Below, one piece after another: positions 43,588-61,891 of a stretch of DNA of 61,891 nt; the first letter of the stretch is position 1; each line of letters starts with the position of its first letter. The notes under the pieces were generated by a model. The model was not told the DNA's origin. It ran no database searches and saw nothing but the letters and a program-made list of their open reading frames with translations. Position numbers and translations under genes: made by a program. Source of the DNA: a virus; the IMG/VR virus record IMGVR_UViG_3300028198_000001, positions 1 through 61,891 of that record; one strand, written 5' to 3'.

Positions 43588-44739
43588 TTAGTATTGTGAA
43601 CCAGCATTAGAACCAACATTACCTATTAAATTCCCAACATCAGTAGCGTTTGCGTCTGATACCGTACTAAATTTATCAATTACATCAATCCATCCATCTC
43701 CACCGCACGCATATCCATGTGTTGTTGAAGTAACACCACACATATTACTCCTTGCAACTGTTAAATCTCCTGCATCAGTAGCATTTTGTGTCCCAGTATC
43801 AAAACTAAATTTATTTATTACAGCAATGGTTGCACCACCAGCAGCATAACCATGAGTCGTTGATGATACCTCAGCGTGCGATCCAACAGAATTTGTCAAA
43901 TCTCCTACATCAGTAGCATTTGTTTGTGATGCAAATGGAAATTTCTCAATTACATCTATACCCGGATATGGATAACCTCCAGCACAATACCCATATGTTG
44001 CTGAGTTGTGACCTGACATCTGACCTTTAGCAGCTGTCAAGTCTGCCCAATCTGTAGCATTTCCGTCTGTAGTAAAGCTAAATCGTTCAATTACATTTGT
44101 AGTTGGATAACTACCACATACAAAACCATAATTTTCTGATGATTGTCCTGCAAGCTCACTTTTTGCAACTGTTAAATTTCCTACATCGGTTGCGTTTCCT
44201 CCACCTGCAAATGACCACTTATCTATTACATCTCGCAACCCACCACCACCACCACTTGGATATTGGTATCCTCCAGAACAGTAACCATGTGTTTTGGATT
44301 TCTGTCCACAAGGGTTATCACTTCTACCATCAGAAAGATTACCAGCATCAGTACTATTTCCATCAGATGTCAAACTAAATTTTTCTATAGTTTTTGAATC
44401 ACTTCCATCTGCACCACCAACAGCATAACCATAAACAGATCCTTGAAAATTATATGGTGACACATCCCCACTACCTGCACCTACATTAGTCCATACGTTA
44501 GCACCAGCGGTTGCATCAGTACACACATACATTTCCCCACTTGTACTATTCAACCATTCTGTTCCTAGAGTTTTATTAGAATCTATTGCTGGGTCACTTG
44601 CACTTGTCAAGGGACCTGGCTTGTTTAATAGATTTGCACCAGTACCTGCAGGTATCTTTGCGTTGGCATCTAACTTAACAAGATTGTTGGCTCCACCAAC
44701 ATCTTCTATCATTGAAATGTCTACTTTATTTAATGCCAT
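43588..44739 (-). CDS. Propeller-type tail adhesin, paralogue 1 (383 aa)
   Basis: N-terminal module: MALNKVDISMIED, then NLVKLDANAKIPA and the conserved TSGEMYVCTDATAGANVWTN. The C-terminal two thirds consist of six kelch-like repeats of about 45 residues, each opening (Y/H)GYxxGG and ending in a (V/I)I(D/E)KFSF...NATDVGDL motif. The second repeat has a GGGGG insertion. The end is GSNAGSQY. Six repeats suggest a six-bladed beta-propeller, a fold often used for ligand binding. It has the shortest shaft module of the group. Confidence 0.78.
   Translation of the reverse strand: MALNKVDISMIEDVGGANNLVKLDANAKIPAGTGANLLNKPGPLTSASDPAIDSNKTLGTEWLNSTSGEMYVCTDATAGANVWTNVGAGSGDVSPYNFQGSVYGYAVGGADGSDSKTIEKFSLTSDGNSTDAGNLSDGRSDNPCGQKSKTHGYCSGGYQYPSGGGGGLRDVIDKWSFAGGGNATDVGNLTVAKSELAGQSSENYGFVCGSYPTTNVIERFSFTTDGNATDWADLTAAKGQMSGHNSATYGYCAGGYPYPGIDVIEKFPFASQTNATDVGDLTNSVGSHAEVSSTTHGYAAGGATIAVINKFSFDTGTQNATDAGDLTVARSNMCGVTSTTHGYACGGDGWIDVIDKFSTVSDANATDVGNLIGNVGSNAGSQY
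44481..44523. repeat. Conserved junction sequence, copy in paralogue 1 (also at 45648, 46986, 49407, 52983)
   Basis: The sequence ctacattagtccatacgtta followed by gcacc recurs without change at 44481, 45648, 46986, 49407 and 52983, and continues as a near-identical 43-base block. More diverged copies are at about 48150, 57770, 60290 and 61600. It encodes the (T)DATAGANVWTNVGAG linker between the fibre shaft and the variable repeats. Such long identity among genes whose flanks differ suggests recent exchange. Confidence 0.85.
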
Positions 44740-44748
44740 TTGTTTTCC

Positions 44749-46020
44749 TTAGTATTGACAAGTTCCCTGATAACCTACTGTTCTTGTTAAATTTCCCACA
44801 TCAGTCGCATCTCCATCTGTACTAAAGCTGAACTTGTCGATTATATTATAATAAGGGTTTCTACCACCTATTACATATCCGTATGTAGTTGATGAGGTTC
44901 CTGCTGGTTGATAACGAGCTTGAGTTAAATTTCCGACATCCGTAGCATCGCCATCAGAAGCAATTGCCCATTTATCAATAACATTTGAGCTAGAACCTGA
45001 ATAACCACCACCCAAATATATATATGTTGAAGAACTAGAACCTCCACCTGCACCACTCCTGCCAACGCTTAAATTTCCCACATCCGTAGCATCGCCATCA
45101 CTACTAAAAGAATATTTATCTATAATGTTTGAGTTACCGGAACGATAACCACCCATAGCATAACCATAAGATTCAGATGTTCCACCTCCTACTTCACCTC
45201 CAGCAACAGTTAAATTCCCAACATCACTGCTACTAGATGTTGCTCCAAACGCAAATTTATCTACGACATCTGTATAAGTAGGAGAAGCACTTTCACCTCC
45301 ATTCATATATCCGTGTGTGGAAGAACTTGAACCACCAGCCGTTCTTCTTGAATGAGTTGTATCACCAACATCAGTAGCAGTTCCACCACTAACCATAGCA
45401 AACCTATCTATGATATTTGAATAAGGGCCACTAGCACCACCTTGCATATAACCATAACTGGTAGTAAAGTCCGTTGCCCCAGCCGAACCAAATCTTGCTA
45501 CTGTCAAATCTCCTACATCAGAAGAATCACCATCGGATGTAAAGCTAATTCTTTCAATATCGGTTTGATATGTGCCATTTGTTCCACCACAAGCAAAACC
45601 ATACGATTCACCTTGAAATTGTAACTTTATATCACCTGTCCCTGCTCCTACATTAGTCCATACGTTAGCACCAGCCGTTGCATCAGTACATATGTAAACT
45701 TCTCCTGAAGTTTTATTAACCCACTTTGCACCAAGTGTAGAATTTGTATCTATAGCTGGATCACTCGTACTTACAGTAGGTCCCGGAACATTAGTTAAGT
45801 TTGTAGCACTCAATGCTGGCAACTTTGCGTTAGCATCTAATTGTAATATTTGATTTGCACCAGTACCAACATCTATTCTTGCTGTTGCAAGAGTACCTGT
45901 AGTAAAAGCAGAACCAGACAGAGCCGTGACTTGACTACCATCAATAGCTGGTATCTTACTGCTACCATCTAATACGATAGTATTGTTTGCTCCAACTGTA
46001 TTTGTTACATTAACTGTCAT
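44749..46020 (-). CDS. Propeller-type tail adhesin, paralogue 2 (423 aa)
   Basis: Starts MTVNVTNTVGANN; the shaft module is longer than in paralogue 1, with two LDANAKLPA-type units (about 15-90), then the CTDATAGANVW junction near 120. Six repeats: YGFACGG, YGYMQGG, HGYMNGG, YGYAMGG, YIYLGGG, YGYVIGG. It ends GYQGTCQY. Repeats 4-6 are the most regular (NIIDKYSFSSDGDATDVGNL), suggesting recent duplication inside the gene. Role inferred as receptor binding. Confidence 0.78.
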   Translation of the reverse strand: MTVNVTNTVGANNTIVLDGSSKIPAIDGSQVTALSGSAFTTGTLATARIDVGTGANQILQLDANAKLPALSATNLTNVPGPTVSTSDPAIDTNSTLGAKWVNKTSGEVYICTDATAGANVWTNVGAGTGDIKLQFQGESYGFACGGTNGTYQTDIERISFTSDGDSSDVGDLTVARFGSAGATDFTTSYGYMQGGASGPYSNIIDRFAMVSGGTATDVGDTTHSRRTAGGSSSSTHGYMNGGESASPTYTDVVDKFAFGATSSSSDVGNLTVAGGEVGGGTSESYGYAMGGYRSGNSNIIDKYSFSSDGDATDVGNLSVGRSGAGGGSSSSTYIYLGGGYSGSSSNVIDKWAIASDGDATDVGNLTQARYQPAGTSSTTYGYVIGGRNPYYNIIDKFSFSTDGDATDVGNLTRTVGYQGTCQY

Positions 46021-46029
46021 TTGTTTTCC

Positions 46030-47256
46030 TTATAATTGAATACTACCATTTCCAGGTTCACCTCTATTATGTGTCAAGTTACCTACATCAGTAGCAGTAT
46101 TATCTGAAGCAAAAGCAAATTTTTCTATTGTATCTCTATAGTACTGTCCTTGAGCACTATCACCTTTAGGAAAACCACCCATAATATATCCATGTGTAGA
46201 TGATGCATTGCCCATAGCATTTTGAGAAGTCACAGTAAGAAGTGTGCTTCCACTTGCAACGGTACTACTATCTGATGCTGTAGACATTTTATCTATTCTG
46301 GTTATACTAGGTGCAACCATTGTACCCATACACCAAGTATAACCATCTGAACTACAAGTTGCAGAAGGTATACCAGAATGAACAAGATCACCGATATGAT
46401 GTGTTGCTGTTTCTGATGAGAAACTCCACTTATGAATATATTCAGAGTTAGTACCAGCTGCTACTCCTCCCATACTATAACCATGTGATGAAGAACAAGC
46501 ACCTTTGGCATAATCTCTGCCATTAGGTAAAAGATCACCAACATTAGTTCCACCTCCATCGGTTGCAAATGAAACTTTTTCTACTTTTTGTAATGGTGTA
46601 GTCACCGCAACTCCACCTTGTACCCAACCATGAGTTTCTGAAGTACAACCACCAGCTGAACCTTGATTTGTAGATAAATCACCTACATCAGTAGTATTAG
46701 CTGGTGCAGACATACCAAACTTTTCAATCCAATTCTGATAACCACTATGGTACCCACCCATACAATAACCATGAGTTGTAGAAGCTGCACCTGCAAGACT
46801 ATCTCTAATAGATGTTAAATCACCTTGGTCTGTACTATTACCATCTGAAGCAAAAGAATTTTTATCTATACTCGCAACATCATAATAAGGGCCGGGATTG
46901 TTGGGTCGCCAATATCCACTCGCACAGAAATATGATGTTGTACAATTAACAAAATGAAACGGTGCCACATCACCTGTACCTGCTCCTACATTAGTCCATA
47001 CGTTAGCACCAGCAGTTGCATCTGTACATATATAAACTTCTCCTGAAGTTGTATTATGCCATTCAGTACCAACACCACCAGAAGGATTTGTGTCTATTGC
47101 TGGGTCACTAGCTGACGCTGTTACACCCGTGGCAACACCAGTTATCTGACTACCATCTACGGCAGGGATATTACCAGAACCATCATATACTAAAAGTTTA
47201 CTGGCAGTAATACCAGTATTCTGCATCATTGAAATGTCAATTTTAGTTAATGCCAT
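46030..47256 (-). CDS. Propeller-type tail adhesin, paralogue 3 (408 aa)
   Basis: Starts MALTKIDISMMQN. After the junction motif comes VAPFHFVNCTTSYF, identical to the first repeat of paralogue 6 at 52054-53256. Six repeats, the fifth altered (DGYTWCMGT) and carrying TRIDKMSTASDSSTVASGSTL, again shared with paralogue 6. The C-terminus GEPGNGSIQL departs from the usual QY end. It is therefore a close sister of paralogue 6, 5 kb away. Confidence 0.78.
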   Translation of the reverse strand: MALTKIDISMMQNTGITASKLLVYDGSGNIPAVDGSQITGVATGVTASASDPAIDTNPSGGVGTEWHNTTSGEVYICTDATAGANVWTNVGAGTGDVAPFHFVNCTTSYFCASGYWRPNNPGPYYDVASIDKNSFASDGNSTDQGDLTSIRDSLAGAASTTHGYCMGGYHSGYQNWIEKFGMSAPANTTDVGDLSTNQGSAGGCTSETHGWVQGGVAVTTPLQKVEKVSFATDGGGTNVGDLLPNGRDYAKGACSSSHGYSMGGVAAGTNSEYIHKWSFSSETATHHIGDLVHSGIPSATCSSDGYTWCMGTMVAPSITRIDKMSTASDSSTVASGSTLLTVTSQNAMGNASSTHGYIMGGFPKGDSAQGQYYRDTIEKFAFASDNTATDVGNLTHNRGEPGNGSIQL

Positions 47257-47265
47257 TTGTTTTCC

Positions 47266-48537
47266 TTAGTATTGTGAGCCTCTTAAACCTCTACGATTAG
47301 ATACAAGATTACCTACATCTGTTCCTATACTTTGTGAAGCAAATGCAAATTTACCAATATGGTTTGACTGAGTATCACCACCTCCAGCAACATAACCATG
47401 TGTTTTTGATGATGCGCCTGCATTATTCGTAGCACCAGTATGTAAGTCACACCAATCTGTAGAATTACCGTCTGTTACAAAACTAACTTTATGAACCGTT
47501 TCTGGTGCCGGCGATGCATTATTACCACCCATTAAATAACCATCTGTTGCAGTTTGACCTGCAGACCCGTAGCCAAAGTTTTGTGAACCCGGAATAGTAC
47601 CAATTAATGCAGCTGTGGTATTTGAAGCAAACGAAAATTTATCTATATTTGCATTACCACCACTTCCGTCCATTCCATAACCATGTGTTGCTGAGTTAGT
47701 ACCAACACAACCATAACGACCCGAATATAAATTTCCATGTGTTTCCTGTGCGCCTTCTGAAGCAAAAGACATACGTCTTATTCCAATATTTTGGGAATAT
47801 CCACCTAAAGTATAAACGTGTGTCGTGGAAGATGCACCACCCATAGAATTATCAGTAGTTATTAAAGAACCTACTTCAGTCCCAGTTGTATTTGAAGCAA
47901 ATGCAAATTTTTGTATTTTGTTTGATGAGCTCGGACCTGTATAACCTCCAGCATGATAACCATGAGTTGTTGAATATCCAGAACTACCTTCAGAAGAAAG
48001 TTCAAATAAATCTCCGTGATCTGTAGCATCTCCATCTGTAGCGAAACTAAATTTTTCAATTCTGTCAACCGTACCTGGCAAGTTACCACCAGCAGCGAAA
48101 CCATAATTCTCACCACCACCATGAAAAGGTGCCACATCACCTGTCCCTGCTCCAATGTTAATCCATACATTAGCACCAGCCGTTGCATCAGTACATATAT
48201 AAGCCTCTCCTGAAGTTGTGTTATGCCACTCTGAACCAACACCACCAGAAGGATTTGTATCTATTGCTGGGTCACTTGCATTCTTTGTAGCACCCGGAAT
48301 ATTTGTTAGTAGACTTGCATCAAGTGCTGGCAACTTTGCGTTAGCATCTAACTGTACAAGTTTATTTGCAGTAGTACCAACATCAATACGAGCAATTGGA
48401 ATTGTACCAGTAGCAATGTTACCAGCTGCAATAGTGGTAACTTGACTTCCATCGACAGCTGGAATCTTTCCAGTACTGTCTAAAAACAGAAATCTATTTG
48501 CTCCTACTGATGTTCCATCTACAATTATATCTGCCAT
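47266..48537 (-). CDS. Propeller-type tail adhesin, paralogue 4 (423 aa)
   Basis: Starts MADIIVDGTSVGANRF, similar to paralogue 8 (MGDVIIDGLTGANRL). Shaft units FLDSTGKIPAVDGSQV and QLDANAKLPALDASLL, junction CTDATAGANVWIN. Six repeats: YGFAAGG, HGYHAGG, HVYTLGG, HGYGMDGS, DGYLMGG, HGYVAGG. It ends GLRGSQY. The nucleotide junction block is more diverged than in paralogues 1-3. Confidence 0.78.
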   Translation of the reverse strand: MADIIVDGTSVGANRFLFLDSTGKIPAVDGSQVTTIAAGNIATGTIPIARIDVGTTANKLVQLDANAKLPALDASLLTNIPGATKNASDPAIDTNPSGGVGSEWHNTTSGEAYICTDATAGANVWINIGAGTGDVAPFHGGGENYGFAAGGNLPGTVDRIEKFSFATDGDATDHGDLFELSSEGSSGYSTTHGYHAGGYTGPSSSNKIQKFAFASNTTGTEVGSLITTDNSMGGASSTTHVYTLGGYSQNIGIRRMSFASEGAQETHGNLYSGRYGCVGTNSATHGYGMDGSGGNANIDKFSFASNTTAALIGTIPGSQNFGYGSAGQTATDGYLMGGNNASPAPETVHKVSFVTDGNSTDWCDLHTGATNNAGASSKTHGYVAGGGDTQSNHIGKFAFASQSIGTDVGNLVSNRRGLRGSQY

Positions 48538-48552
48538 TTGTTTTCCTTTTTC

Positions 48553-49794
48553 TTAATATTGCGTTCCTGCCGCCCCACGCCTTGCTACGGTTAAATCCGC
48601 AACGTCTGTCGAGTTCCCATCTGACGAATAATTATATTTCTCGATTACATTATGAGTTTCCCCTCCTGCGGAGTACCCATACGTTTCAGAAGCCGAACCA
48701 GACCGTTGCCTATTGCTTGCCAATAGATTCCCAACATCAATTGAATTTCCATCAGAAGAAAAACTAAATTTCTGAATCACATTAGAACCTGTCCCACCGT
48801 GAATATATCCGTAGTCTGCCGATGATGTTCCTGTAACATAATCAAGATTACCTAACAAGTTGCCCACATCGGTTGAATTGCCATCGCTTGAAGTGGAACC
48901 TTTATCAATAATATCATAGGAGCCAAATCCACCAGAGCAATAATAATGAGTCGTAGAGGACGAACCGCCTGCCCAATCTCTGGCTTGCGTTAAATCCCCA
49001 ACATCAGTCGCGTTTCCATCAGATGAAAAAGAATTTTTATCAACAACATCATTAGTAGGCCGCCCCATGTGGTAGCCGTAGTCTTCACTAGAGGCACCGC
49101 AAATCCCTGAATTGCCAACGGTCAAGTCACCAATGTCTGCCGCATCACCATCCGATGAAAAAGAATGTTTGTCGATAACGGTATGACCTCCATCACCACC
49201 ACCACCGTTGTATCCATAGTCTGAGGATGAACAACCAGACCTACCATATACTGATATGGTCGCATTACCAACATCTGTGGCATCGCCTTCCGATGAATAC
49301 GAATATTTGTCTATTACGTTTCCAAACCCACCTGCGTAACCGTTAGAAGCATAGCCATATTGTGTCCCACCAAATGACCACGGCTGTACATCCCCACTAC
49401 CTGCTCCTACATTAGTCCATACGTTAGCACCAGCGGTTGCATCAGTACATATGTACATTTCACCACTTGTACTATTTAACCATTCTGTTCCAACACCACC
49501 TGAGGGATTTGTAGAAATTGTAGGATCGCTTGCAGAGATTGTTGCAGATACTATACCAGTTAATAGACTTCCATCAATAACAGGAAGATTTCCAGAGCCA
49601 TCTAGTTGTACCAGTTTATTTGCTGTTGTTCCAACATCTAAACGTGCTGAAGCAATAGTACCACTAGCAACATTGGAAGCATTCAGAATTGTTATCTGAC
49701 TACCATCTTTTGCTGGTATCTTACTATTAGTATCAGCAACCAATATTTGATTGGCACCGTTTACTTGACTATCTGATATAGAAATTATTGCCAT
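48553..49794 (-). CDS. Propeller-type tail adhesin, paralogue 5, with G+C-richer repeat part (413 aa)
   Basis: Starts MAIISISDSQVNGANQ. Shaft and junction resemble paralogue 1 at the DNA level, but the repeat region (about 48553-49390) uses more C/G-ending codons: hand counts of 60-base stretches give about 35-57% G+C against about 30-35% nearby. Six repeats: YGYASNGY, YGYNGGGG, YGYHMGRP, HYYCSGGF, YGYIHGGT, YGYSAGGE, with SFSSDGNATDVGDL units. It ends GAAGTQY. This looks like a recently acquired propeller joined to a resident shaft. Confidence 0.78.
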   Translation of the reverse strand: MAIISISDSQVNGANQILVADTNSKIPAKDGSQITILNASNVASGTIASARLDVGTTANKLVQLDGSGNLPVIDGSLLTGIVSATISASDPTISTNPSGGVGTEWLNSTSGEMYICTDATAGANVWTNVGAGSGDVQPWSFGGTQYGYASNGYAGGFGNVIDKYSYSSEGDATDVGNATISVYGRSGCSSSDYGYNGGGGDGGHTVIDKHSFSSDGDAADIGDLTVGNSGICGASSEDYGYHMGRPTNDVVDKNSFSSDGNATDVGDLTQARDWAGGSSSTTHYYCSGGFGSYDIIDKGSTSSDGNSTDVGNLLGNLDYVTGTSSADYGYIHGGTGSNVIQKFSFSSDGNSIDVGNLLASNRQRSGSASETYGYSAGGETHNVIEKYNYSSDGNSTDVADLTVARRGAAGTQY

Positions 49795-51387
49795 TTAGAA
49801 AGTTCCACCGTCAACTACATTTGACCATGCTGGTGTTCCACTATTTGATTTAAGAAAATAACCATCAGTACCAGCTGCTGTAACTTGTATTGTTCCAGTA
49901 CCATTACCATATAATATTCCATTAGATGTAAATGTTGATGCACCAGTTCCACCAAATCCAACTGATAATTGTGCAGGAGTTGTCCAAGTCCCACTTGTAA
50001 CTATTCCAACACCTGTTGCACTTGAAGTATTAAGTCCTGTTCCACCATAGGTTGCACTAATTGCTGTACCATTCCAAGTCCCAGTTCCAATCGTTCCTAC
50101 AGTTGTTATTGCAGCTTGACCTGTCCATGCAGTATCAATAACAATATTATCTGATGTAACAGTAATACCAGTACCAGTATTAACATACATAGTATTTCCA
50201 GTTTTACTTAAACCATCACCTGTTGTTATTTGTCCTGTACCAGAAAACTGAGAAAATAAAATTTGTGTTGTTCCAAAAGTAATGGCAGTATCTTGTGTCA
50301 TTACATAACCATTATCTGCATTAGTAGTTCCACCTTCACAAAAGAAGAATACACCAGAATTTAATTCGCCTGCTGTATCTGCATCAGTTGCTCTGGTTAA
50401 AACCCAGTTGGAAGAACCATCACCAACAGTAGTTACTTTGTAAATACCATTTGCAGTATTACCAGTTTGGTCTTTAACTAATACTCTATCATTGAGTGAA
50501 AGTGCTACACCATCAATTGTAATTGCAGCTTGTGTTCCTGTGTTAGTTAAAGTTGCACCAACACCACTAACACCATTATTATATGTAGTACTTAGGTTTG
50601 TTGTGGTTGCAGCTTTAACCGAATCTTTTACTTCTAATCCAGTTAAGTTATTATCAACATATGTTTTAATTGCCAATGCACTTGCAAGAGTTGTATGAGT
50701 TCCTGCAACAGTTGATAAGTCTGTATCAAGAGCAGTAATACCATCTAATAAATTTAACTCGGTTGCACTTGCAGTTACTTGCGTTGCAGAACCACTTGTA
50801 CCAATCCAAAATTCTGATGTCTTAACAACATCAATATGTTTATTTGTATCAAGAACTACTGCTTTTCCTGCATAAGCATTTCCAACAGTCGTATCTAAAT
50901 AATTTAATTGTGCTGTTGATGCAGTACAACCATCAAGTTTATTTAATTCTCCTGAGTCTGATGTAACCCCAGCAAGAATATTTAACTCAGCAGTCGTTGA
51001 TGTAACACCATCAAGTTTATTTAATTCTGTTGCAGATACAGTTACTTGTGTTGCCGAACCTGTTGAACCAAGATAAAGTGCATTAGTTTTAATTGCATCT
51101 ACATGAGAATTGTTATCTGTTAGTATTGCAGATGCCGCAGTTAAAGTTCCATTGGCATGATCTAATAGTTTAGTAAAATAAGAACCACCGACAATTACAG
51201 CTGTCCTAGTTCCACCCAAACCATCTGCATGACCAATAAATAACTTGCCTAATCCTTGTTCGTCACCACTACCATCATCTGACGAATAAGAATACCCTAA
51301 TTCACCAGTAGTAAGAGTACCACCACTAATATGAGAATTAGGTATTGTGTTATTCGTTGATCTTTTTATTTGTATTTGATTGGCCAT
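49795..51387 (-). CDS. Long tail fibre with tandem shaft repeats (530 aa)
   Basis: A fibre of different type. The head module MANQIQIKRSTNNTIP ... GELGYSYSS ... LFIGHADG is a common phage fibre attachment domain. The shaft has tandem ATELNKLDGVT-type repeats (about 110-225: ATELNKLDGV, TAELNILAGV, SGELNKLDGC, TAQLNYLDT, ATELNLLDGI). The C-terminal half is beta-rich with NGIYKVTTVGDGSSNWVLTRATD. The last residues TPAWSNVVDGGTF resemble phage fibre tips. Confidence 0.8.
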   Translation of the reverse strand: MANQIQIKRSTNNTIPNSHISGGTLTTGELGYSYSSDDGSGDEQGLGKLFIGHADGLGGTRTAVIVGGSYFTKLLDHANGTLTAASAILTDNNSHVDAIKTNALYLGSTGSATQVTVSATELNKLDGVTSTTAELNILAGVTSDSGELNKLDGCTASTAQLNYLDTTVGNAYAGKAVVLDTNKHIDVVKTSEFWIGTSGSATQVTASATELNLLDGITALDTDLSTVAGTHTTLASALAIKTYVDNNLTGLEVKDSVKAATTTNLSTTYNNGVSGVGATLTNTGTQAAITIDGVALSLNDRVLVKDQTGNTANGIYKVTTVGDGSSNWVLTRATDADTAGELNSGVFFFCEGGTTNADNGYVMTQDTAITFGTTQILFSQFSGTGQITTGDGLSKTGNTMYVNTGTGITVTSDNIVIDTAWTGQAAITTVGTIGTGTWNGTAISATYGGTGLNTSSATGVGIVTSGTWTTPAQLSVGFGGTGASTFTSNGILYGNGTGTIQVTAAGTDGYFLKSNSGTPAWSNVVDGGTF

Positions 51388-51399
51388 AGTTTATCCCTT

Positions 51400-51645
51400 T
51401 TACATTGTTCCTGCATCAAAAGCTAAATCAGTAAATGCTTTTAATTCATATCTTGATGTATTTGAGTTCCAAATTAATAAAGAATCATTTGGTGCAGAAG
51501 ATGAATCAACATCAACTGCGGCATTAACTGTTATAGTTCCTCGTACTTCTGTAGAACGAACAACCTGTGAAGCTGCTATACCCGGTTGTGTTACTTTAAT
51601 AACATTCGGAGAACCAGCAGCTGCTTGTACAACAACATTTGCCAT
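51400..51645 (-). CDS. Small structural protein of the fibre region (81 aa)
   Basis: Ends LLIWNSNTSRYELKAF, the (L)(V)Y(D)xxTxxYxx(K)xL strand motif found in phage fibre and baseplate beta domains. The rest is Ser/Val/Ala-rich. It shares one base with the upstream gene (51645) and precedes the long fibre at 51387. It may be a baseplate accessory subunit. Confidence 0.55.
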   Translation of the reverse strand: MANVVVQAAAGSPNVIKVTQPGIAASQVVRSTEVRGTITVNAAVDVDSSSAPNDSLLIWNSNTSRYELKAFTDLAFDAGTM

Positions 51646-51983
51646 TACTTAGTTACCTCTGGTCTAATAGTTATTACTCCTTCAATAACTCTTGTAACTG
51701 TTGAATCGCTGTGTGTAATTTGTAAATCATAAACATATCTACCTGCTTTAAGTGCAGCTGTCTGTACAGCTGTCAATGACATAACAATAACACCACTTGT
51801 ATGTGGTGTTGATTTAGTTGCATTGATTGTTGTATATGCAGTTGACGTATAATTCTTTCTTAATTGAGATGTCGGAGTATATGATGTCAAGTCCTGAACT
51901 GTTGCACCATCTGTTTGATATACAGTAATTGACTTAGAAAAAGTCGAGCCTTGATCTATTATCTGATTTAGTATTGATGCCAT
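51645..51983 (-). CDS. Baseplate-like protein with Ig-type fold (112 aa)
   Basis: Starts MASILNQIIDQGSTFSKSITVYQTDGATVQDLTSYTPTSQLRK, the pattern of the BppU/baseplate upper domain (QGxxFxxxxxxxDxxGxxxDLTgyt), and ends RYVYDLQITHSDSTVTRVIEGVITIRPEVT, an Ig-like strand pair. It probably anchors a fibre to the baseplate. A late promoter lies upstream. Confidence 0.68.
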   Translation of the reverse strand: MASILNQIIDQGSTFSKSITVYQTDGATVQDLTSYTPTSQLRKNYTSTAYTTINATKSTPHTSGVIVMSLTAVQTAALKAGRYVYDLQITHSDSTVTRVIEGVITIRPEVTK

Positions 51984-52053: not shown

Positions 52054-53256
52054 TTAGTATTGTTGACTACCACCCAATTCACTTCTACCAATTGTTAAGT
52101 TACCTACATCTGTAGCAGTTCCTGTTGAAGAAAAAGAAAACTTATCAATTACATTAGAATCGCCATTTGATACACGATAACCACCCATTGTATAACCATA
52201 AGTAGTAGATGAAGCACCTGCCGCCCAATTCTGAATACTCTGAGAAAGTGTACTTCCACTAGCTACTGAATCACTATCTGATGCTGTAGACATTTTATCT
52301 ATTCTAGTAGTATAACTAGCTGGAAAAGATCCTACTGTATAAACATAACCATCTGTACTTTGTGTGGCACAACCACCATTGCCAGCAATAAGTGTTCCCA
52401 CAGCATATGTTGCTGTTTCAGATGCATAATCAAATTTATCAATTTGGCCATCACCAGGTGAATTATATCCCCCCATAGTATAACCATATGTTTCTGATGA
52501 ACCACCTCCAACATAATCTGTACTATATTGCATAACATTACCAACTAGAGTAGAACCTCCATCTGTTGCAAACGAATATTTATGGGCTATTCGAGCACTG
52601 CCAGTTGGTGAAGGATTTGTATATCCGCCAGCTACATATCCGTAAGCAGTAGAAGTTATACCACAACCTGTTTGCCAACCAGTAGTTAAATCACCTACAT
52701 CTGTAGAATCAGCTGTAGTAGCCATAGCAAACTTATCAATTGTAATATTAGTTGCCCAAGTACCGGTTGCATAACCTCCAGCCAAATATCCATGTGTTGT
52801 AGAAGATGTCCCTGTTATTCCTCGTCTAGCAAGTGTTAAATCACCTTGATCTGTACTATTACCATCTGTAGCCATAGCATTTTTATCAATAGATGCGTGA
52901 TTTGGTTGATAACCACCAGAAGTAAAATATGATGTTGTACAATTAACAAAATGAAACGGTGCCACGTCACCTGTACCTGCTCCTACATTAGTCCATACGT
53001 TAGCACCGGCTGTTGCATCTGTGCAGATAAATATTTCACCATCAGTTGTATTTTTATATTTTATTCCGACACCACTAGGATTGGTGCTTAAGGTAGGGTC
53101 ACTAGCACCAGACAAAGTTGTACTCATTCCCGTCAATAAACTTCCGTCTACTGCTGGGACTTTTGCATTACTGTCCAGTTGTACTAATTGATTTGCAGAG
53201 GTACCGACATCTTCCATCATGCCGACATCAACTTTAGTGAGCGATAGAATAGTCAA
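52054..53256 (-). CDS. Propeller-type tail adhesin, paralogue 6 (400 aa)
   Basis: Starts MTILSLTKVDVGMMEDVG, an extended version of the MALTKIDISMM start. The junction block is the fifth near-identical copy. Six repeats: SYFTSGGY, HGYLAGG, YGYVAGG, YGYTMGG, DGYVYTVGS, YGYTMGG. It shares the first repeat and the altered fifth repeat with paralogue 3. It ends SELGGSQQY. Probable receptor-binding protein. Confidence 0.78.
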   Translation of the reverse strand: MTILSLTKVDVGMMEDVGTSANQLVQLDSNAKVPAVDGSLLTGMSTTLSGASDPTLSTNPSGVGIKYKNTTDGEIFICTDATAGANVWTNVGAGTGDVAPFHFVNCTTSYFTSGGYQPNHASIDKNAMATDGNSTDQGDLTLARRGITGTSSTTHGYLAGGYATGTWATNITIDKFAMATTADSTDVGDLTTGWQTGCGITSTAYGYVAGGYTNPSPTGSARIAHKYSFATDGGSTLVGNVMQYSTDYVGGGSSETYGYTMGGYNSPGDGQIDKFDYASETATYAVGTLIAGNGGCATQSTDGYVYTVGSFPASYTTRIDKMSTASDSDSVASGSTLSQSIQNWAAGASSTTYGYTMGGYRVSNGDSNVIDKFSFSSTGTATDVGNLTIGRSELGGSQQY

Positions 53257-53267
53257 TGTCTTGCCCT

Positions 53268-53605: not shown

Positions 53606-53620
53606 TGAATTAATTCCTTT

Positions 53621-54613: not shown

Positions 54614-55006
54614 TTATTCTATCTCCTTCCAACTCGTAGTATCTTCATCCCAACTATATTTTTTGTCATCATCTGGATAAGGTGTAGGTGCATCCCATTG
54701 GCACGTTGATTCGTCTAGTAACCAAGATGGATATGGTTGAGGTGATATGAAAGCATCTCTATTCACATCATATGTATGTCCAATCCCAGCGTGATTTTTC
54801 CGTAAGGGTGTTTCCCCTAGTCGATGTTCACCTCGTCTTGTATTATATGATGTCTGTTTCCAAACAGACCACCCAGTTAGGATAGTTAGGAAGTCAATTC
54901 CTAATTGTTCAACTTCATTACCATTTGAATCTTTAAGTTCGTCATTATGGACAGACAAAACTTCAATAACTTTTGAATTTAATCCTATTTTTGCGAAAGA
55001 TGACAT
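54614..55006 (-). CDS. Fibre-associated protein, Trp/Tyr/Pro-rich (130 aa)
   Basis: Contains YDVNRDAFISPQPYPSWLLDE and WDAPTPYPDDDKKYSWDEDTTSWKE, a pattern I recall from proteins next to fibres in marine T4-like phages. N-terminal FAKIGLNSKVIEVLSVHNDEL is also typical. The function is unknown; an adaptor or chaperone is plausible. It overlaps its neighbour by one base. Confidence 0.65.
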   Translation of the reverse strand: MSSFAKIGLNSKVIEVLSVHNDELKDSNGNEVEQLGIDFLTILTGWSVWKQTSYNTRRGEHRLGETPLRKNHAGIGHTYDVNRDAFISPQPYPSWLLDESTCQWDAPTPYPDDDKKYSWDEDTTSWKEIE

Positions 55007-56118
55007 TAGGTTGTATAGCTCCCTGTACCAGTAAATGTTAATATCGTATCAGTACCACTTGTAGTAACAGTTGGAGTACCACTTGTTGTGCCAGAATATC
55101 TTGCGGTAGGCATTTTTAGAATAACTACGCCCTTACCTCCTGCACCACCCACAAAACTCCCTCGACCACCGCCACCACCACCACCCAAATTGGCAGAGCC
55201 GTTACTACCATTACCAGTACCAGACCCTGCTCCACCTCCTCCTGCTCCTGCCGATCCTCCTATTCTTGATGCAGGTGCATATCCTGCTCCACCACCGCCA
55301 CCGCCAGCATAGCTAACACTTGAACCAGAAATATTGTTAGCTGTCCCAGCTCCTCCAGCACCTCCAGTTGTCCCTGAAAAATTTGCTCCAACAGCAGTTG
55401 CTCCACCGCCTGCTCCTGCTGCGGTATCACCTGAATCAGTTCCAGTTCCACCATTATTACCCTGTGATGGTGATGTGCTTGGAGTGTTACCCGATCCTGC
55501 AACGGCAGTATAAGATGAATTAACGCCTCCACTTCCACCTCCAGACCCACCATCACTTCCAATTGATGCACTAGTATTTGCACCACTACCACCAGCACCA
55601 CCTCCAGCAGATGAAATCGTAGTTAATCCACTTCCACTAATAGAACTAGCAGCTCCGTCAGCTGCCATAGCTCCACCGTCACCTACAGTAATAGTAATAA
55701 CTGATGAAGTTGCTGCATTTTGTGTTGATTCTCTATATCCACCAGCACCCCCACCGCCCGAAGCATATTTTTCTGCAAGGTTTGGATCGCCAGCACCACC
55801 ACCTCCTCCGACAACCAGATATTCTATATTGTATGCTGTGTAAGGAGTAACATTCCCAGTTCCCTCACCAGTATTTGTCCAAACATTAGCTCCACTACTC
55901 ACCGTAGTACAAGTAAACATCTCACCGCTTGTTGTATTTACAATTACATCTCCAAGTGTAGGTGTAGCTGGACTTGATATAGTTGGGTCTGAGGATTGTT
56001 TTGTTATTTCATCTACTACAGCACCCGATGCTAACTTAACTGCTGTAACAATACCATCACCAAGGTCTGATGTTGTAAGAGGTGAAGGTGTAGGTTTCTG
56101 TCCTAAATATCCTGCCAT
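55006..56118 (-). CDS. Glycine-rich tail fibre (370 aa)
   Basis: N-terminal MAGYLGQKPTPSPLTTSDLGDG, then a diverged copy of the junction motif (TTSGEMFTCTTVSSGANVWTNTGEGTGNVTPY), then about 230 residues dominated by GGGGGAG blocks with Ser/Thr/Asn, as in polyglycine receptor-binding tips. It combines the junction of the propeller paralogues with the tip of the 38662 fibre, supporting module exchange. Ends ILTFTGTGSYTT. Confidence 0.8.
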   Translation of the reverse strand: MAGYLGQKPTPSPLTTSDLGDGIVTAVKLASGAVVDEITKQSSDPTISSPATPTLGDVIVNTTSGEMFTCTTVSSGANVWTNTGEGTGNVTPYTAYNIEYLVVGGGGGAGDPNLAEKYASGGGGAGGYRESTQNAATSSVITITVGDGGAMAADGAASSISGSGLTTISSAGGGAGGSGANTSASIGSDGGSGGGSGGVNSSYTAVAGSGNTPSTSPSQGNNGGTGTDSGDTAAGAGGGATAVGANFSGTTGGAGGAGTANNISGSSVSYAGGGGGGAGYAPASRIGGSAGAGGGGAGSGTGNGSNGSANLGGGGGGGRGSFVGGAGGKGVVILKMPTARYSGTTSGTPTVTTSGTDTILTFTGTGSYTT

Positions 56119-56450: not shown

Positions 56451-56460
56451 TATATCTCCC

Positions 56461-56814
56461 TTATCCTAGTGCTAGTGCAAGTGCTGCCGCATCATCTACT
56501 GATGCATGACCCGATGCAGCTATTAAAGTATTTACGTCAGCAGTTGTTGGATTTGCTATTGATGTTAGTTCTTTTCCTAAATATATAATATATAGAGTTG
56601 TTCCACTTGCGGGTGCTGATGTAAATGTGATTGTTGTACTTGATACTGTATATGATACTCCGGGTTCCTGTATGACACCACCATAAACAACCAAGAGGCT
56701 ATTCTGAGAAACATTCCATTTCAATACATTGAACGCAGTTAAAACTCCGTTTCCTGTAGTAATGGAAGTTTTTGCAAACTCTCCAATGTCAAGTCCTCTT
56801 CCTATATATGCCAT
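56461..56814 (-). CDS. Small fibre head-type protein (117 aa)
   Basis: Starts MAYIGRGLDIGEFAKTSITTGNGVLTAFNVLKW and contains VYGGVIQEPGVSYTVSSTTITFTSAPASGTTLYIIYLG, the standard fibre attachment module, then a short acidic-Ala tail. It lacks a tip domain, so it may be a truncated or accessory fibre. Two late boxes lie upstream. Confidence 0.68.
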   Translation of the reverse strand: MAYIGRGLDIGEFAKTSITTGNGVLTAFNVLKWNVSQNSLLVVYGGVIQEPGVSYTVSSTTITFTSAPASGTTLYIIYLGKELTSIANPTTADVNTLIAASGHASVDDAAALALALG

Positions 56815-56833
56815 ACTCTGTTCCCTTTTAGTT

Positions 56834-56850
56834 TATTTATAATATTTATA
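56834..56850 (-). promoter_or_regulatory. Tandem T4-type late promoter boxes
   Basis: Two TATAAATA boxes on the minus strand (56834-56841 and 56843-56850), upstream of the 56814 gene. The upstream one lies in CAAAATGACAGTATAAATATT, a sequence repeated with one change at 60690-60710. Confidence 0.72.
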
Positions 56851-56868
56851 CTGTCATTTTGACTTCTT

Positions 56869-58155
56869 TTATACTTGACAGCCTGCTGGGGCGATTTGAC
56901 CATATGAAAGATTTCCAACATCTGTCGCATTTCCGTCTGAACTAAAACTATGCTTTTCTATAGTATCATTACCACCAACACCTCCACAAGTATATCCATA
57001 AGTAGTTGAAGATGAACCAGCTCGTTGATGGACTGATATTGTTAAATCTCCTACATCCGTCGCATTTCCATCAGCTGCAAAAGATACTTTGTCAATTACA
57101 TTTGAACTTGGATAACCACCTGATCTATAACCATAAGTTGCTGATGAAGTTCCTGCTGATGAATGAAGAGCTACAGTAGCACTACCTATGTTTGTCGCAT
57201 TAGATGCTGAAGTTAATGCAAATTTTTCGATGTTCGTTGTATTCGGGCCACCTCCAGAAATTGCGTATCCGTAAGAACCATCATCATTTGATGCTCCACC
57301 CCCACCATATGTTTGTCTAGTTAAATCACCCCAATCAGTTGCATTGTTTGACGAATTAAAAGCAAATCTTGAAATAACAGTTCCGTCTCCACCGCCCCCA
57401 CTATTATATTCTTGTCCAACACTCCAAGCGTGAGTTGCATTACCTACCGACATAGCAGCAGATGTGCCTTGCGTTAAGTCGCCAACATCTGTACTACCAC
57501 CAGATGAAACCATACTGAACCGAGCAATTTCATTTCCTGCGGCACCCCCTGCGGAACCACCAGCAGTATAACCATAACCATTATCTTTATCTGAACCCGA
57601 TGATTTACTTAATGATTGACCAGTAGTCCCAGCAATATCCCCCCAATCTGCCCCATCACCATCTGATGTGAACGAAAACCGTGTGATAGAAGGGTCGTTC
57701 CAATCTCCTACCATAAAACCATATGTTGTTCCACCAAAATTATATGGTACTATATCACCCGAACCACCTCCAGAACAAGTCCATACATTTTCTCCAGCTG
57801 TTGCGTCTGTACAAATAAACTGTTTACCTGTAGTATGATTAACCCACTCAGTACCAACTCCACCCGAAGGATTTGTTGATACAGTAGGATCACTTGCACT
57901 CTTGGTATAAGAAACAATACCTGTAAGTAAACTTCCATCAACTGCTGGTAAACCAGTAGCACCAACTACAACTAATTTATTTGCAGTCGTACCAGTATCT
58001 AATCGAGCAGTAGGAATAGTACCAGTAATATTACCACCTGCCATAGTAGTAACTGCACTACCATCAACAGCTGGAATCTTACTATTGGAATCTGCAACCA
58101 ATACTTCATTAGCTGCAACTACAGGAGTCCCTTTGATTATAATTTGTTGTGCCAT
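56869..58155 (-). CDS. Propeller-type tail adhesin, paralogue 7 (428 aa)
   Basis: Starts MAQQIIIKGTPVVAANEV. Shaft unit VADSNSKIPAVDGSAV as in paralogue 5, junction FICTDATAGENVWTCSGGG with cysteine in place of the usual asparagine. Six repeats: YGFMVGDW, YGYTAGGS, HAWSVGQE, YGYAISGG, YGYRSGG, YGYTCGG; repeats 3 and 4 are enlarged by Gly-rich insertions. It ends APAGCQV. Role inferred as receptor binding. Confidence 0.78.
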   Translation of the reverse strand: MAQQIIIKGTPVVAANEVLVADSNSKIPAVDGSAVTTMAGGNITGTIPTARLDTGTTANKLVVVGATGLPAVDGSLLTGIVSYTKSASDPTVSTNPSGGVGTEWVNHTTGKQFICTDATAGENVWTCSGGGSGDIVPYNFGGTTYGFMVGDWNDPSITRFSFTSDGDGADWGDIAGTTGQSLSKSSGSDKDNGYGYTAGGSAGGAAGNEIARFSMVSSGGSTDVGDLTQGTSAAMSVGNATHAWSVGQEYNSGGGGDGTVISRFAFNSSNNATDWGDLTRQTYGGGGASNDDGSYGYAISGGGPNTTNIEKFALTSASNATNIGSATVALHSSAGTSSATYGYRSGGYPSSNVIDKVSFAADGNATDVGDLTISVHQRAGSSSTTYGYTCGGVGGNDTIEKHSFSSDGNATDVGNLSYGQIAPAGCQV

Positions 58156-58170
58156 TCAGAGTTCCTTAAG

Positions 58171-58482
58171 TTATTGTGCAGCTACCCAGTCAGCAACCAT
58201 TGTTTCAACTTCTGCATCAGACATATCAACCTCAGTTGGGCGTCCATTTTCATCCATTACTTTATATGGTGTTACAGCATGAACAGCAACTTGTCGTGCT
58301 TTCAAACCAGCTACATCAAGAACATTTACTGTTGAAGGAACATAATATTCTGTTGTGTCTGGTTCAACACCAATCATTTTATTATCATTATGCCAATGTC
58401 CACCATTAGTAATAAAAGTAGGCGTTGACATTCCATGACCATTCATAGGTGCATGAAGTTTATATTCTAAATACCTCGCCAT
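58171..58482 (-). CDS. Small His/Gly-containing protein of the fibre region (103 aa)
   Basis: No family recognised. The N-terminal half has several histidines (HAPMNGHGM, GGHWHNDNK), the C-terminal part is acidic (TEVDMSDAEVETMVADWVAAQ). RBS AAGGAG. It could be a fibre tip or adaptor; a metal site is conceivable but unproven. Confidence 0.58.
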   Translation of the reverse strand: MARYLEYKLHAPMNGHGMSTPTFITNGGHWHNDNKMIGVEPDTTEYYVPSTVNVLDVAGLKARQVAVHAVTPYKVMDENGRPTEVDMSDAEVETMVADWVAAQ

Positions 58483-58517
58483 GTTTTTTCTCCTTTTAAA
58501 AATTTAATCATCGTTAA

Positions 58518-58525
58518 TATTTATA
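58518..58525 (-). promoter_or_regulatory. T4-type late promoter
   Basis: TATAAATA on the minus strand, 35 bases before the 58482 start, overlapping the gap after the 58529 stop. Confidence 0.65.
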
Positions 58526-58528
58526 CAA

Positions 58529-59341
58529 TCATTCCGACTTCTTTTTCTTTTTGTAAATATAAGCATGATTTACAATTGCATCCACACCAATTCGTTTCAA
58601 TGAATGTTTGTGCTCATCCTTAAATGTTTCTACCATCTGGTCTAAAAATATATGCAAGCTTTGAACACTTGGATGCTTATTTTTATCCAATTCTTTTTGC
58701 ACACTTGCCATGTACTCTCTTGATAACTTCTCACCCACCATTGGATGAATACCAAATTGTTCCCAATACTCAACAGTTGATATTGCTATCTTTCCACTTG
58801 ACATCAAGTTTTGAATAGATTGTCTGAATCCCATTCGTATTGCATTTTCAATTTCTGAAGCTTCAAAATCTTCTTCATCCCAATCTTCTGCAATACCATG
58901 TGATGTACGAATCTCATCATATATATCTTGGTACATTCCAATTTCTTTCATCGCATTCTCTGCCGATGACCTCATTTGTTCTATTCCAACTCTAGCTTCT
59001 TCTGCTCTTACTTTATCCAGTTCGTTTTCAGAATCTTCCCACTTCTCAATTTTAATTTTATTTTTTTTAGTTTTAAAATGTGCCTCTATTAATGCATTTC
59101 GTTTATTGTCTATCTGTGATAAACATTGTTTCATTTGACGATATGGACTATCTGCCAACATCGTCATTGTCATCAACGTAGAAGTTGTCTGACTATTCTT
59201 TCTTCCTACTGCCGTTTTAGCTCTGTGTAATTCTGGTAATCTATCACAAATTTTTATTAATGCTTCTGCACTTATTGTTGTATTTGGAATTAAATCATTA
59301 ACTAATGTTTCAGATAAAACCAAAGATTTTTCTTCACTCAT
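58529..59341 (-). CDS. Charged helical protein in the fibre region (270 aa), paralogue of 42650-43531
   Basis: An unknown helical protein rich in Lys/Glu with a very basic C-terminus (YIYKKKKKSE). It shares motif order with 42650-43531: a central helix ending FKTKKNKIKIEKW, YMASVQKELDKNK, and HIFLDQMVETFKDEH. Not a propeller, no shaft module. Flanked by late promoters and adhesin genes, it may be a fibre-assembly helper kept with each fibre set. Confidence 0.6.
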   Translation of the reverse strand: MSEEKSLVLSETLVNDLIPNTTISAEALIKICDRLPELHRAKTAVGRKNSQTTSTLMTMTMLADSPYRQMKQCLSQIDNKRNALIEAHFKTKKNKIKIEKWEDSENELDKVRAEEARVGIEQMRSSAENAMKEIGMYQDIYDEIRTSHGIAEDWDEEDFEASEIENAIRMGFRQSIQNLMSSGKIAISTVEYWEQFGIHPMVGEKLSREYMASVQKELDKNKHPSVQSLHIFLDQMVETFKDEHKHSLKRIGVDAIVNHAYIYKKKKKSE

Positions 59342-59357
59342 ATTTTCTCCTTGTTAA

Positions 59358-59365
59358 TATTTATA
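59358..59365 (-). promoter_or_regulatory. T4-type late promoter
   Basis: TATAAATA on the minus strand within ACAGTATAAATATTAACAAGGAG, 16 bases before the 59341 start; the RBS immediately follows. Confidence 0.68.
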
Positions 59366-59384
59366 CTGTTTGTTTTCCTTAGTA

Positions 59385-60677
59385 TTAATCATTACAACCT
59401 GTGGCGCCTTTTAATCCAGTTACTAAATTTCCTACATTTGTAGCACTACCATCAGAAGCAAATGAATATTTTTGAATGAGTGTTGACCCACCATGATCTC
59501 CCGTACAATAACCATGTGTGGTTGAAGAATTTCCTGCTTGACCAGTTCGTGCGGATGATATAGTTCCTACATTTGTAGCATTTGCATCTGAAGCAAAGGT
59601 CCACTTATCAATCGTATTAATTTTATCTGGTTGAGAGGCTTTTTGCCCACCACAACAATAACCATGTGTTTCTGAATTGGTTCCCGAATTATCGTAACCT
59701 GTTGATGAATTTATGTCACCTACATCCGTACCGTTTGCTTCAGTTGAGAAATTAAATTTATCAATTACATTTGAAAAAGGACTTGCACCACCAGCACAAT
59801 ATCCATGAGTAAGTGAACTAGCACATCGAGTAGACATTCTAGCTACTGACATATCAGCAATATCAGTAGAATTTGTTTGAGATGCAAAGGGATATTTCAT
59901 AACAATATTTACATTTGTAGTCCACGGATGTGTATTTCCCATAGTTGGATAACCATAATCTTCAGCTGTAAAGCTGCCATTGTACGAAAATAGTATGGCT
60001 AAATCAGCCCAATCAGCAGCATTTCCTTGTGAAGCAAAAGCAAATCTATCAATAACATTTGTTGCAATATCAGGTGAACCACCTGTCATTCCACCAGCTC
60101 TATAACCATAAGTCGCTGAATGAGATGAACTAGCGCGATATATACTAGTAGTTAAATCTCCCCAATCTGCACCATTCCCATCTGTAGTAAAACTAAATCG
60201 TTGAATAACATTGCTCGTACTAGGACCTCCCAAAACAAAACCATAATTCTCACCATATGGCGGCGCTGGTAGAGGAATATTACCACTCTGCTCACCTACA
60301 TTTTTCCATACATTTTCACCAGCCGTTGCATCAGTACAAACATAAACTTCTCCTGAAGTTGTATTATGCCATTCAGTTCCAACTCCACCAGAAGGATTTG
60401 TTGAAATCGTTGGGTCACTTGCATTCTTAGTTGCACCTGCAACACCAGTTAAAGCTGCACCACTTACTGCTGGAAGTTTTGCAGTACCATCCAACTTAAC
60501 AATTTTACCAGCTGTTGTACCCGTATCTAATCGAGCAACTGGAATTGTTCCAGTAGAAAAGTTTGCACCAGCTACATTAGTAACTGCACTACCATCAAGT
60601 GCTGGTATTTTTCCGTTGGCATCCAGTATAACTAATCTGTTTGCACCTGTTAATCCATCTATAATTACATCGCCCAT
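59385..60677 (-). CDS. Propeller-type tail adhesin, paralogue 8 (430 aa)
   Basis: Starts MGDVIIDGLTGANRL. Shaft units ILDANGKIPALDGSAV and KLDGTAKLPAVSGAAL; junction VCTDATAGENVWKNVGEQSGN, then a proline-rich PLPAPPYGE not seen in other copies. Six repeats: YGFVLGG, YGYRAGG, YGYPTMGN, HGYCAGG, HGYCCGG, HGYCTGD. It has an unusual number of cysteines at the fourth position of the repeats. Ends GATGCND. Confidence 0.78.
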   Translation of the reverse strand: MGDVIIDGLTGANRLVILDANGKIPALDGSAVTNVAGANFSTGTIPVARLDTGTTAGKIVKLDGTAKLPAVSGAALTGVAGATKNASDPTISTNPSGGVGTEWHNTTSGEVYVCTDATAGENVWKNVGEQSGNIPLPAPPYGENYGFVLGGPSTSNVIQRFSFTTDGNGADWGDLTTSIYRASSSHSATYGYRAGGMTGGSPDIATNVIDRFAFASQGNAADWADLAILFSYNGSFTAEDYGYPTMGNTHPWTTNVNIVMKYPFASQTNSTDIADMSVARMSTRCASSLTHGYCAGGASPFSNVIDKFNFSTEANGTDVGDINSSTGYDNSGTNSETHGYCCGGQKASQPDKINTIDKWTFASDANATNVGTISSARTGQAGNSSTTHGYCTGDHGGSTLIQKYSFASDGSATNVGNLVTGLKGATGCND

Positions 60678-60724
60678 ATTTTTTCCTTGTTAATATGTAT
60701 ACTGTCATTTTGAGTTAATGCCAT
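60665..60724 (-). other. Vestigial fibre-gene start between paralogues 8 and 9
   Basis: After paralogue 9's stop there is the usual RBS (AAGGAAAACAA) and an ATG at 60724 reading MALTQNDSIH, like the MALTKIDISMM starts of other paralogues, but the frame stops after 19 codons, running over the start of paralogue 8. It looks like the 5' remnant of a fibre gene lost by recombination; chance is possible. Confidence 0.5.
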
Positions 60725-60733
60725 TTGTTTTCC

Positions 60734-61891
60734 TTATACTTGTTGTCCACAAGGTGTTCTTTGTGTCGTAGGAAGATCACCTACATCTGTAGCGTTTCCC
60801 TCTGAAGCATAACTCATCTTATCAATTATATTTCTATCCGAACCTGTCCAACCAGAAGTCCAATATCCATATGAAGTAGAGCTTGATGGGGAACAAGCCG
60901 CTCTGGCAACCGTCATTAAACTACCAAGAGAAGTTGCATTTCCAGAACTCGCCAAGGCATATTTTTGAACAACCCCTGTATTAACAAGTTGGTCAGTATA
61001 CGCATGAGTTGTTGAATTATTGGTCTGAAAAGAACCACCAGTATGAAGATCACCTACATCAACAGCATTACCATCAGAAGCAAACGCAAATCTATCAATT
61101 ACATTGTTGTACGGAGTGGCATCTGATCCAATTTCATAACCATAGTCTGAACCAGAGGCGTTACCCGATCCGTTCCTGTTTACACTTAAATTCCCAACTT
61201 CAGTAGCATTTGCTAGAGTTGCATATAACCATTTTTGAATCCCAGATGTATTATTACCTGCAATATAACCATGAGTAATTGACCCCGCTCCACCAGTGTT
61301 TGACGTGGCAGTATATAAATCTCCGTGGTCAACAGCATTCCCATCTGAACTAAAACTAAATTTATCAATTATATTTGTTGTGGGGCCTCCACCACCCGCA
61401 GTAAATCCATAAGTTTCTGACGAAGTTCCTGAACAGTTATCTCTGCCTTGTGTTAAAGTCCCAACAGCCGTGGCATTACCATCAGATGTAAAAGACCACT
61501 TGGCTATGTGATTACAATAATGACCATGACCAAAACCACCACTTGTATAACCATAAGTTGTACCTTGCCATGCCCAAGGCGTCACATCACCACTAGTCCC
61601 ACCTGTGCTTGTCCATACATTTTCACCAGCAGTTGCATCTGTTAAAATAAAAATTTCACCTGAAGTTGTGTTAATCCATTTCGTTCCAAGACCCGTTGAA
61701 GGATTTGTTGAAACCGTTGGGTCACTTGCACTCTTTGTGGCACTTGAAACTCCTGTCATAGCACCAGCTGCGATTGCAGGCATAGCACCAGAACCATCCA
61801 GTACTAAAACTTTACCAGTTGTTGTACCAGTATCTATGTTAGCTGTTGCGATTGATCCAGTAGTTACTTGAGTTGCATTAAGTGTAGTTAC
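60734..61891 (-). CDS. Propeller-type tail adhesin, paralogue 9, N-terminus cut by window edge
   Basis: The frame is open to the right edge (386 codons seen); the true start lies outside. The visible shaft is VTTGSIATANIDTGTTTGKVLVLDGSGAMPAIAAGAM and the junction ILTDATAGENVWTS, with L for C. Six repeats: YGYTSGG, YGFTAGGG, HGYIAGN, YGYEIGSD, HAYTDQLV, YGYWTSG; several lack the double glycine. Ends RTPCGQQV. It is the most diverged member in repeat sequence. Confidence 0.78.
   Translation of the reverse strand, partial: VTTLNATQVTTGSIATANIDTGTTTGKVLVLDGSGAMPAIAAGAMTGVSSATKSASDPTVSTNPSTGLGTKWINTTSGEIFILTDATAGENVWTSTGGTSGDVTPWAWQGTTYGYTSGGFGHGHYCNHIAKWSFTSDGNATAVGTLTQGRDNCSGTSSETYGFTAGGGGPTTNIIDKFSFSSDGNAVDHGDLYTATSNTGGAGSITHGYIAGNNTSGIQKWLYATLANATEVGNLSVNRNGSGNASGSDYGYEIGSDATPYNNVIDRFAFASDGNAVDVGDLHTGGSFQTNNSTTHAYTDQLVNTGVVQKYALASSGNATSLGSLMTVARAACSPSSSTSYGYWTSGWTGSDRNIIDKMSYASEGNATDVGDLPTTQRTPCGQQV

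Follow-up and report, generated by a model that had tools for sequence, protein, structure and literature searches.

Probable receptor-binding adhesins with exchangeable kelch heads in the fibre region of a T4-like marine myophage

Why would a phage carry nine versions of one gene in its tail-fibre region? The question is raised by positions 43588 to 61891 of IMGVR_UViG_3300028198_000001, a complete IMG/VR record of 61,891 bases that represents a phage fragment and was analysed over its whole length (the window). A reading made earlier from the letters alone, here called the original prediction, had proposed nine tandem genes for six-repeat proteins, each with a propeller at a fibre tip. The contig carries recognisable T4-like myophage genes (portal, major head protein, terminase, sheath, tube, neck proteins and SbcCD). 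Because its major head protein resembles those of the Pelagibacter phages HTVC008M and Mosig and the Methylophilales phage Melnitz (63-66% identity), the phage probably infects a small marine bacterium. We consider it likely that the nine genes are an array of fibre-type receptor-binding adhesins whose kelch heads recombine.

Nine genes and their predicted propeller fold

All nine predicted open reading frames (ORFs) are present in the window. Lengths are given in amino acids (aa).

g1, 43588..44739, minus strand: 383 aa; short shaft, junction and six-repeat kelch head; last gene of the contiguous array
g2, 44749..46020, minus strand: 423 aa; modelled with AlphaFold2; propeller at residues 138-423 (window positions about 44749-45609)
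g3, 46030..47256, minus strand: 408 aa; most degenerate repeats (blade 5); modelled by AlphaFold2 as a six-bladed kelch propeller; head sister to that of g6
g4, 47266..48537, minus strand: 423 aa; six repeats
g5, 48553..49794, minus strand: 413 aa; six repeats; opens the contiguous array, right after a 530-aa fibre protein
g6, 52054..53256, minus strand: 400 aa; six repeats; short shaft; TTG start
g7, 56869..58155, minus strand: 428 aa; six repeats; head sister to that of the gene L014:693-1973 in a relative
g8, 59385..60677, minus strand: 430 aa; six repeats
g9, 60734..61891, minus strand: six repeats; 5' end lost at the contig end

The count of nine stands as a lower bound, since g9 is cut by the contig end, and the arrangement turned out to be tandem in part: g5-g1 (43588-49794) are contiguous, and g6, g7, g8 and g9 are scattered between further genes for fibre and assembly proteins. 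All complete copies have an uninterrupted reading frame and a start of their own. A search of the contig with g2 retrieved all eight others at highly significant E-values, far beyond chance, and their proteins aligned to g2 over the full length with 41-46% identity. The shaft is shorter in g1, g3 and g6 than in the other complete genes. The proposed common shaft and junction were recovered as well, with a junction of the (I/V)CTDATAG(A/E)NVW type in all nine; g9 has ILTDATAGENVW instead of CTDATAG.

A hidden Markov model (HMM) built from 12 clear repeats detected exactly six significant repeats in each of the nine proteins (weakest domain E-value 1.4e-3), the number originally predicted, and many single repeats are degenerate, such as blade 5 of g3 and g6. 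Eight of the nine proteins match PHROG 19111, a family of unassigned function. Searched alone, g2 found no PDB match. A profile of all nine sequences, compared with the PDB by hmmsearch, matched KLHL20 (E-value 1.2e-7), SAKe6 and KLHL12, spanning 1e-7 to 5e-6.

AlphaFold2 was run on g2 with a 62-row alignment and yielded monomer models. The g2 model is a six-bladed propeller with a mean predicted local distance difference test score (pLDDT) of 87; from residue 141 onwards, all ten-residue blocks score above 90. Foldseek matched it to the designed kelch protein SAKe6 at 2e-20, and VIA-align gave Z 41.0 and a root-mean-square deviation of 1.6 Å over 275 residues to SAKe6, and Z 39.7 to KEAP1. 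Because its blade 5 is degenerate, g3 was chosen as the hardest case, and its model has the same six-bladed kelch fold (mean pLDDT 83, Z 38.3). The two models superpose over 275-279 residues on solved six-bladed kelch propellers; for the other seven proteins the evidence consists of the six repeats and the full-length alignment. The columns of the double glycine after beta-strand B have a mean pairwise identity of 0.68-0.81. By eye, an aromatic residue (KF/KY) lies near the position of the classical kelch tyrosine, and the classical tryptophan is mostly replaced, although some repeats retain a W (TDWGDL). Together, the models, the PDB profile matches and the repeats strongly support the original proposal, in that a kelch propeller of six blades is the predicted C-terminal part of each of the nine proteins. 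RCC1, which had been named as an alternative, was absent among the structural matches listed; no separate RCC1 test was made.

In KEAP1, the face formed by the BC and DA loops binds the ligand. When strands were placed according to the g2 model, mean pairwise identity among the nine proteins was 0.19 for the BC and DA loops, with BC loops of 4-15 residues, but 0.40 for the AB and CD loops on the opposite face, whose length is nearly fixed. None of 20000 permutations gave a contrast as extreme, and the same trend was seen in 62 sequences. The BC/DA face thus lacks the conservation expected of a shared active site.

Separate histories of shafts and heads

Comparison with related loci revealed how the two ends of these proteins have evolved. 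The gene that precedes the array served as a landmark:

49795..51387, minus strand: 530-aa fibre protein; its orthologue stands directly before the array in the related loci L009 (87.5% identical) and L015 (76.8%)

In L009 this orthologue is followed by five propeller genes and then by neck and terminase genes that are 85-94% identical to those of the window; in L015, too, the array sits between the fibre gene and neck genes. Shaft types are orthologous between this phage and its near relatives, at 81-90% nucleotide identity. The shaft and junction DNA of g5, g2, g4 and g3 is 81-88% identical to that of L009 genes, whereas the heads of the same pairs reach about 50%, the level of any pair of paralogs. 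The drop is abrupt and falls just beyond ICTDATAGANVWTNVGAG.

The difference extends to silent sites. In the four pairs with L009, 295 of 383 same-residue codons (77%) were identical in the N-terminal parts, compared with 258 of 472 (55%) in the heads (p 7e-12), and the contrast persisted when well-aligned positions alone were counted (p 1e-6). The identity of same-residue codons ranged over 0.50-0.58 for heads and 0.64-0.83 for shafts; it was 67-78% in neighbouring core genes and 40-74% between heads of unrelated paralogs. Furthermore, the gene L014:693-1973 joins a g2-type shaft (85% nucleotide identity) to a head that is sister to that of g7, with a value of 99 in the Shimodaira-Hasegawa-like approximate likelihood ratio test (SH-aLRT). 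Among 176 wider relatives, 32 of the 48 pairs whose N-terminal parts are at least 80% identical have heads less than 60% identical. The propeller tree is poorly resolved (31 of 58 inner branches open) and was used for its starred groups only. Because silent-site divergence differs between N-terminal parts and heads, these comparisons show that shafts have not been transmitted with the heads they now carry.

A model in which single blades are shuffled was also considered, and paralog identity was tabulated per blade position with the blades in register. The longest exact DNA matches between paralogs of the window, up to 44 nucleotides, lie at or near the junction. At the other end of the gene we found a short linker:

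44740..44751, minus strand: linker TAAGGAAAACAA, comprising the g2 stop codon and the g1 start context; also at 46021, 47257, 59370 and 60725
48538, minus strand: linker core GGAAAACAA, a variant linker site

The linker TAAGGAAAACAA precedes g1, g2 and g3, has a slightly altered context before g4, and also occurs after g8 and g9. The GGAAAACAA start context is common to g1-g4, and its core stands between genes in L009, L014, L015 and L016. Two linkers have no propeller gene behind them: the one after g8 (59370) and a slightly longer one after g1.

Two intergenic stretches were also observed. Between g9 and g8 (60678-60733), a linker is followed by ATGGCATTAACT, which equals the start of g3, and then by unrelated sequence, a pattern that resembles what a lost propeller gene would leave behind. 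In a relative, the stretch after a propeller gene (L025:9755-9931) resembles that after g1, with a linker, an AT-rich spacer and the start of a gene like that at 42650-43531; another propeller ORF, however, starts no more than about 180 bases further on, and the stretch is possibly a deletion remnant.

The junction and shaft are also found with heads of other kinds:

55006..56118, minus strand: tenth junction protein; a Gly_rich_2 (PF21722) head on a related junction, without a propeller
40321..42678, minus strand: 785-aa baseplate/fibre protein; its shaft repeats are related, and it has a ConA-like lectin domain, Laminin_G_3
38662..40308, minus strand: 548-aa protein with a related N-terminus, shaft repeats and a Gly_rich_2 domain

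Outside the window, ten relatives with the junction but no propeller were sampled, and Gly_rich_2 was detected in nine of them, in eight cases above the Pfam cut-off. Because one junction carries exchangeable heads, we read the propeller as the probable head of a fibre-type protein, and this exchangeability is the best evidence for that reading.

A probable adhesin array and its rivals

In the proposed plan, each protein begins with a shaft that is probably trimeric, continues with a small, conserved junction module and ends in a kelch propeller of six blades. Shaft and junction would plug the protein into the tail or into a larger fibre, and the propeller would grip the cell surface through its BC/DA-loop face. 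As in tail-fibre receptor-binding proteins, a conserved N-terminal attachment part is combined with a variable C-terminal head, and the genes lie in the tail-fibre/neck region. The fibre-tip role put forward originally is therefore retained as a probable one: shaft and junction are shared with fibre-region proteins, glycine-rich heads can take the place of the propeller, and the presumed ligand face is hypervariable. Heads would be swapped by homologous recombination, with the near-identical junction DNA as the 5' boundary and the stop-codon/start linker as the likely 3' boundary. Shaft types persist as several distinct lineages, so that several adhesins are probably made and displayed. The original prediction had offered joint display and a recombination stock as alternatives; intact copies, a start linker common to several of them, maintained shaft lineages and mobile heads suggest both at once.

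The array might instead be mostly a recombination stock, with one or two genes reaching the virion at a time and the other copies silent. Movement of heads between shafts would fit this, as would the linkers at sites where no propeller gene follows (after g8 at 59370 and, slightly longer, after g1). However, all complete copies are intact ORFs with their own starts, g1-g4 have the same GGAAAACAA start context, and the shaft types persist as distinct lineages in different phages, although a silent stock would have no need of this; we regard this explanation as unlikely. It is less plausible still that no exchange takes place and that heads merely evolve much faster than shafts under diversifying selection. 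The loops of the ligand face do vary most, but silent codon identity in the heads is at the level of unrelated paralogs and below that of shafts and core genes, the drop at the junction is abrupt, and L014 bears a g7-like head on a g2-type shaft. Diversity-generating retroelements typically act on hypervariable loops of a fixed scaffold, and such an element could in principle have produced the diversity. No RVT_1 match to a reverse transcriptase was found in the contig, which is incomplete, and a template repeat was not searched for; the variation also takes the form of indels in six separate loops and of differences between whole heads, so that we give this origin almost no credence.

A role inside the infected cell, as for poxvirus kelch proteins, or an enzymatic one, must also be weighed against virion adhesins. 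Kelch folds include host-interaction proteins and enzymes, and poxvirus kelch proteins were among the structural matches. The genes, however, lie in the fibre region, they have shaft and junction in common with other fibre-region proteins and with glycine-rich heads, and the BC/DA face is not conserved like a shared active site. Moreover, in phage CBB, which has three kelch proteins near one another in its genome, one of the three, CBB_552, is reported in the virion (PMC5259590). An intracellular or enzymatic role thus appears very improbable.

Several points weigh against an array of recombining kelch adhesins. Single-protein Pfam searches gave no kelch match for any of the nine. Strong conservation of the junction could account for part of the identity break, and one of the four pairs, g3 and L009e, is not significant alone (p 0.28). 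Separate shaft lineages are no proof of simultaneous display. The propeller family is also missing from the cultured phages whose capsid proteins are closest, HTVC008M, Mosig and Melnitz, and is therefore not essential to the lineage.

The proposed adhesins can be compared with several known systems. They resemble KEAP1, KLHL12, KLHL20 and SAKe6 in their six kelch-like repeats, their fold (Z 39-41 for g2), the profile match and the variable BC/DA loops, but identity is about 20%, there is no single-sequence Pfam kelch match, and the setting is a phage fibre-type protein rather than a BTB/Cul3 adaptor. The exchange of T-even tail-fibre adhesins (gp37/gp38) is the classical case of a conserved stem with a recombining adhesin tip, but it concerns a single adhesin locus, not an array, and the tip fold differs. 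A predicted kelch fold is shared with CBB_550/552/554 and with proteins of PhiPA3, Noxifer and BcepSaruman (kelch and virion structural proteins). In kelch terms CBB_552 is a distant relative, and it is the only kelch protein with a virion report. The available parts of the sources on these phages mention neither a shaft/junction module nor head exchange nor arrays that reach nine or more copies. Pelagimyophages have a hypervariable host recognition cluster of tail-fibre genes between VrlC and the neck gene gp14; it resembles the present region in its hypervariability, but the available part of that report names other host-recognition domains and not kelch arrays or head exchange (PMC7029224). 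Phage kelch proteins, hypervariable fibre regions and exchange of adhesin tips are thus already known, and the combination of a kelch adhesin array with shaft-head exchange, which we did not find in the accessible portions of the literature on phage kelch proteins and hypervariable tail fibres, including that on CBB, P-HM2 and pelagimyophages, appears to be new. For PHROG 19111, these results suggest a fold, a probable function and the way in which its members vary. Fixed stems with exchangeable six-bladed heads would offer a natural system for studying how abundant ocean phages track changing hosts, and for asking whether a single particle can show several adhesins.

Occurrence in relatives and companion genes

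The 89 propeller loci fetched contain 313 propeller ORFs, and 259 of the 284 complete ones have six detected repeats; the original prediction had suggested such a comparison of repeat number across related contigs. When loci with identical propeller ends were merged, 60 independent groups remained. At least two propeller copies occur in 45 of them, and the largest fetched stretches hold nine; these counts are minima because contigs and flanks are limited. Among cultured phages, Synechococcus phage S-SKS1 shares the predicted kelch fold and bears at least four ORFs for related propellers close to the genome join (L081, L156; HQ633071.1 1-1226, 201800-208007). Some of these ORFs are interrupted or unannotated, and a sulfotransferase gene lies among them. 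A cellular origin was also considered, and a scan of genome contigs for two peptide patterns returned one locus, on a 5-kb contig of a metagenome-assembled genome. Because it holds homologues of PHROG 1409 and of a 103-aa protein described below, that locus is probably phage DNA.

Three genes near the propeller genes encode these companions, and a fourth encodes a putative assembly protein:

42650..43531, minus strand: PHROG 1409 protein, 293 aa; charged and coiled-coil-like by eye
58529..59341, minus strand: second PHROG 1409 protein, 270 aa; charged and coiled-coil-like by eye
58171..58482, minus strand: 103-aa protein; no Pfam or PHROG match
51645..51983, minus strand: 112-aa protein; matches PHROG 3304 ('L-shaped tail fiber protein assembly') and PHROG 1084

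Homologues of PHROG 1409 were found in 38 of the 89 propeller loci (29 of the 60 merged groups) and in none of 50 loci that have the junction only. Those of the 103-aa protein occur in 30 of 89 propeller loci, compared with 0 of 50. Shared ancestry may contribute to this association because propeller loci and junction-only loci stem from different phages. From their distribution, the PHROG 1409 proteins are possible assembly factors. More tentatively, and with somewhat less than even confidence, we suggest that the window belongs to an unnamed, widespread system in which kelch arrays carry cassette heads swapped between conserved shafts at a fixed DNA junction, and in which the PHROG 1409 proteins and the one of 103 aa are dedicated companions that aid assembly or act as adaptors. 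If this is true, one particle may show several different heads.

Sites TATAAATA, which resemble late promoters, number 16 against 9.5 expected, and 2 of 100 shuffles had as many; this mild excess was given no weight. Elsewhere in the window, 1-828, 6879-7508 and 9514-10812 match PHROG families annotated as QueE-like, 2OG-Fe(II) oxygenase and porphyrin-biosynthesis.

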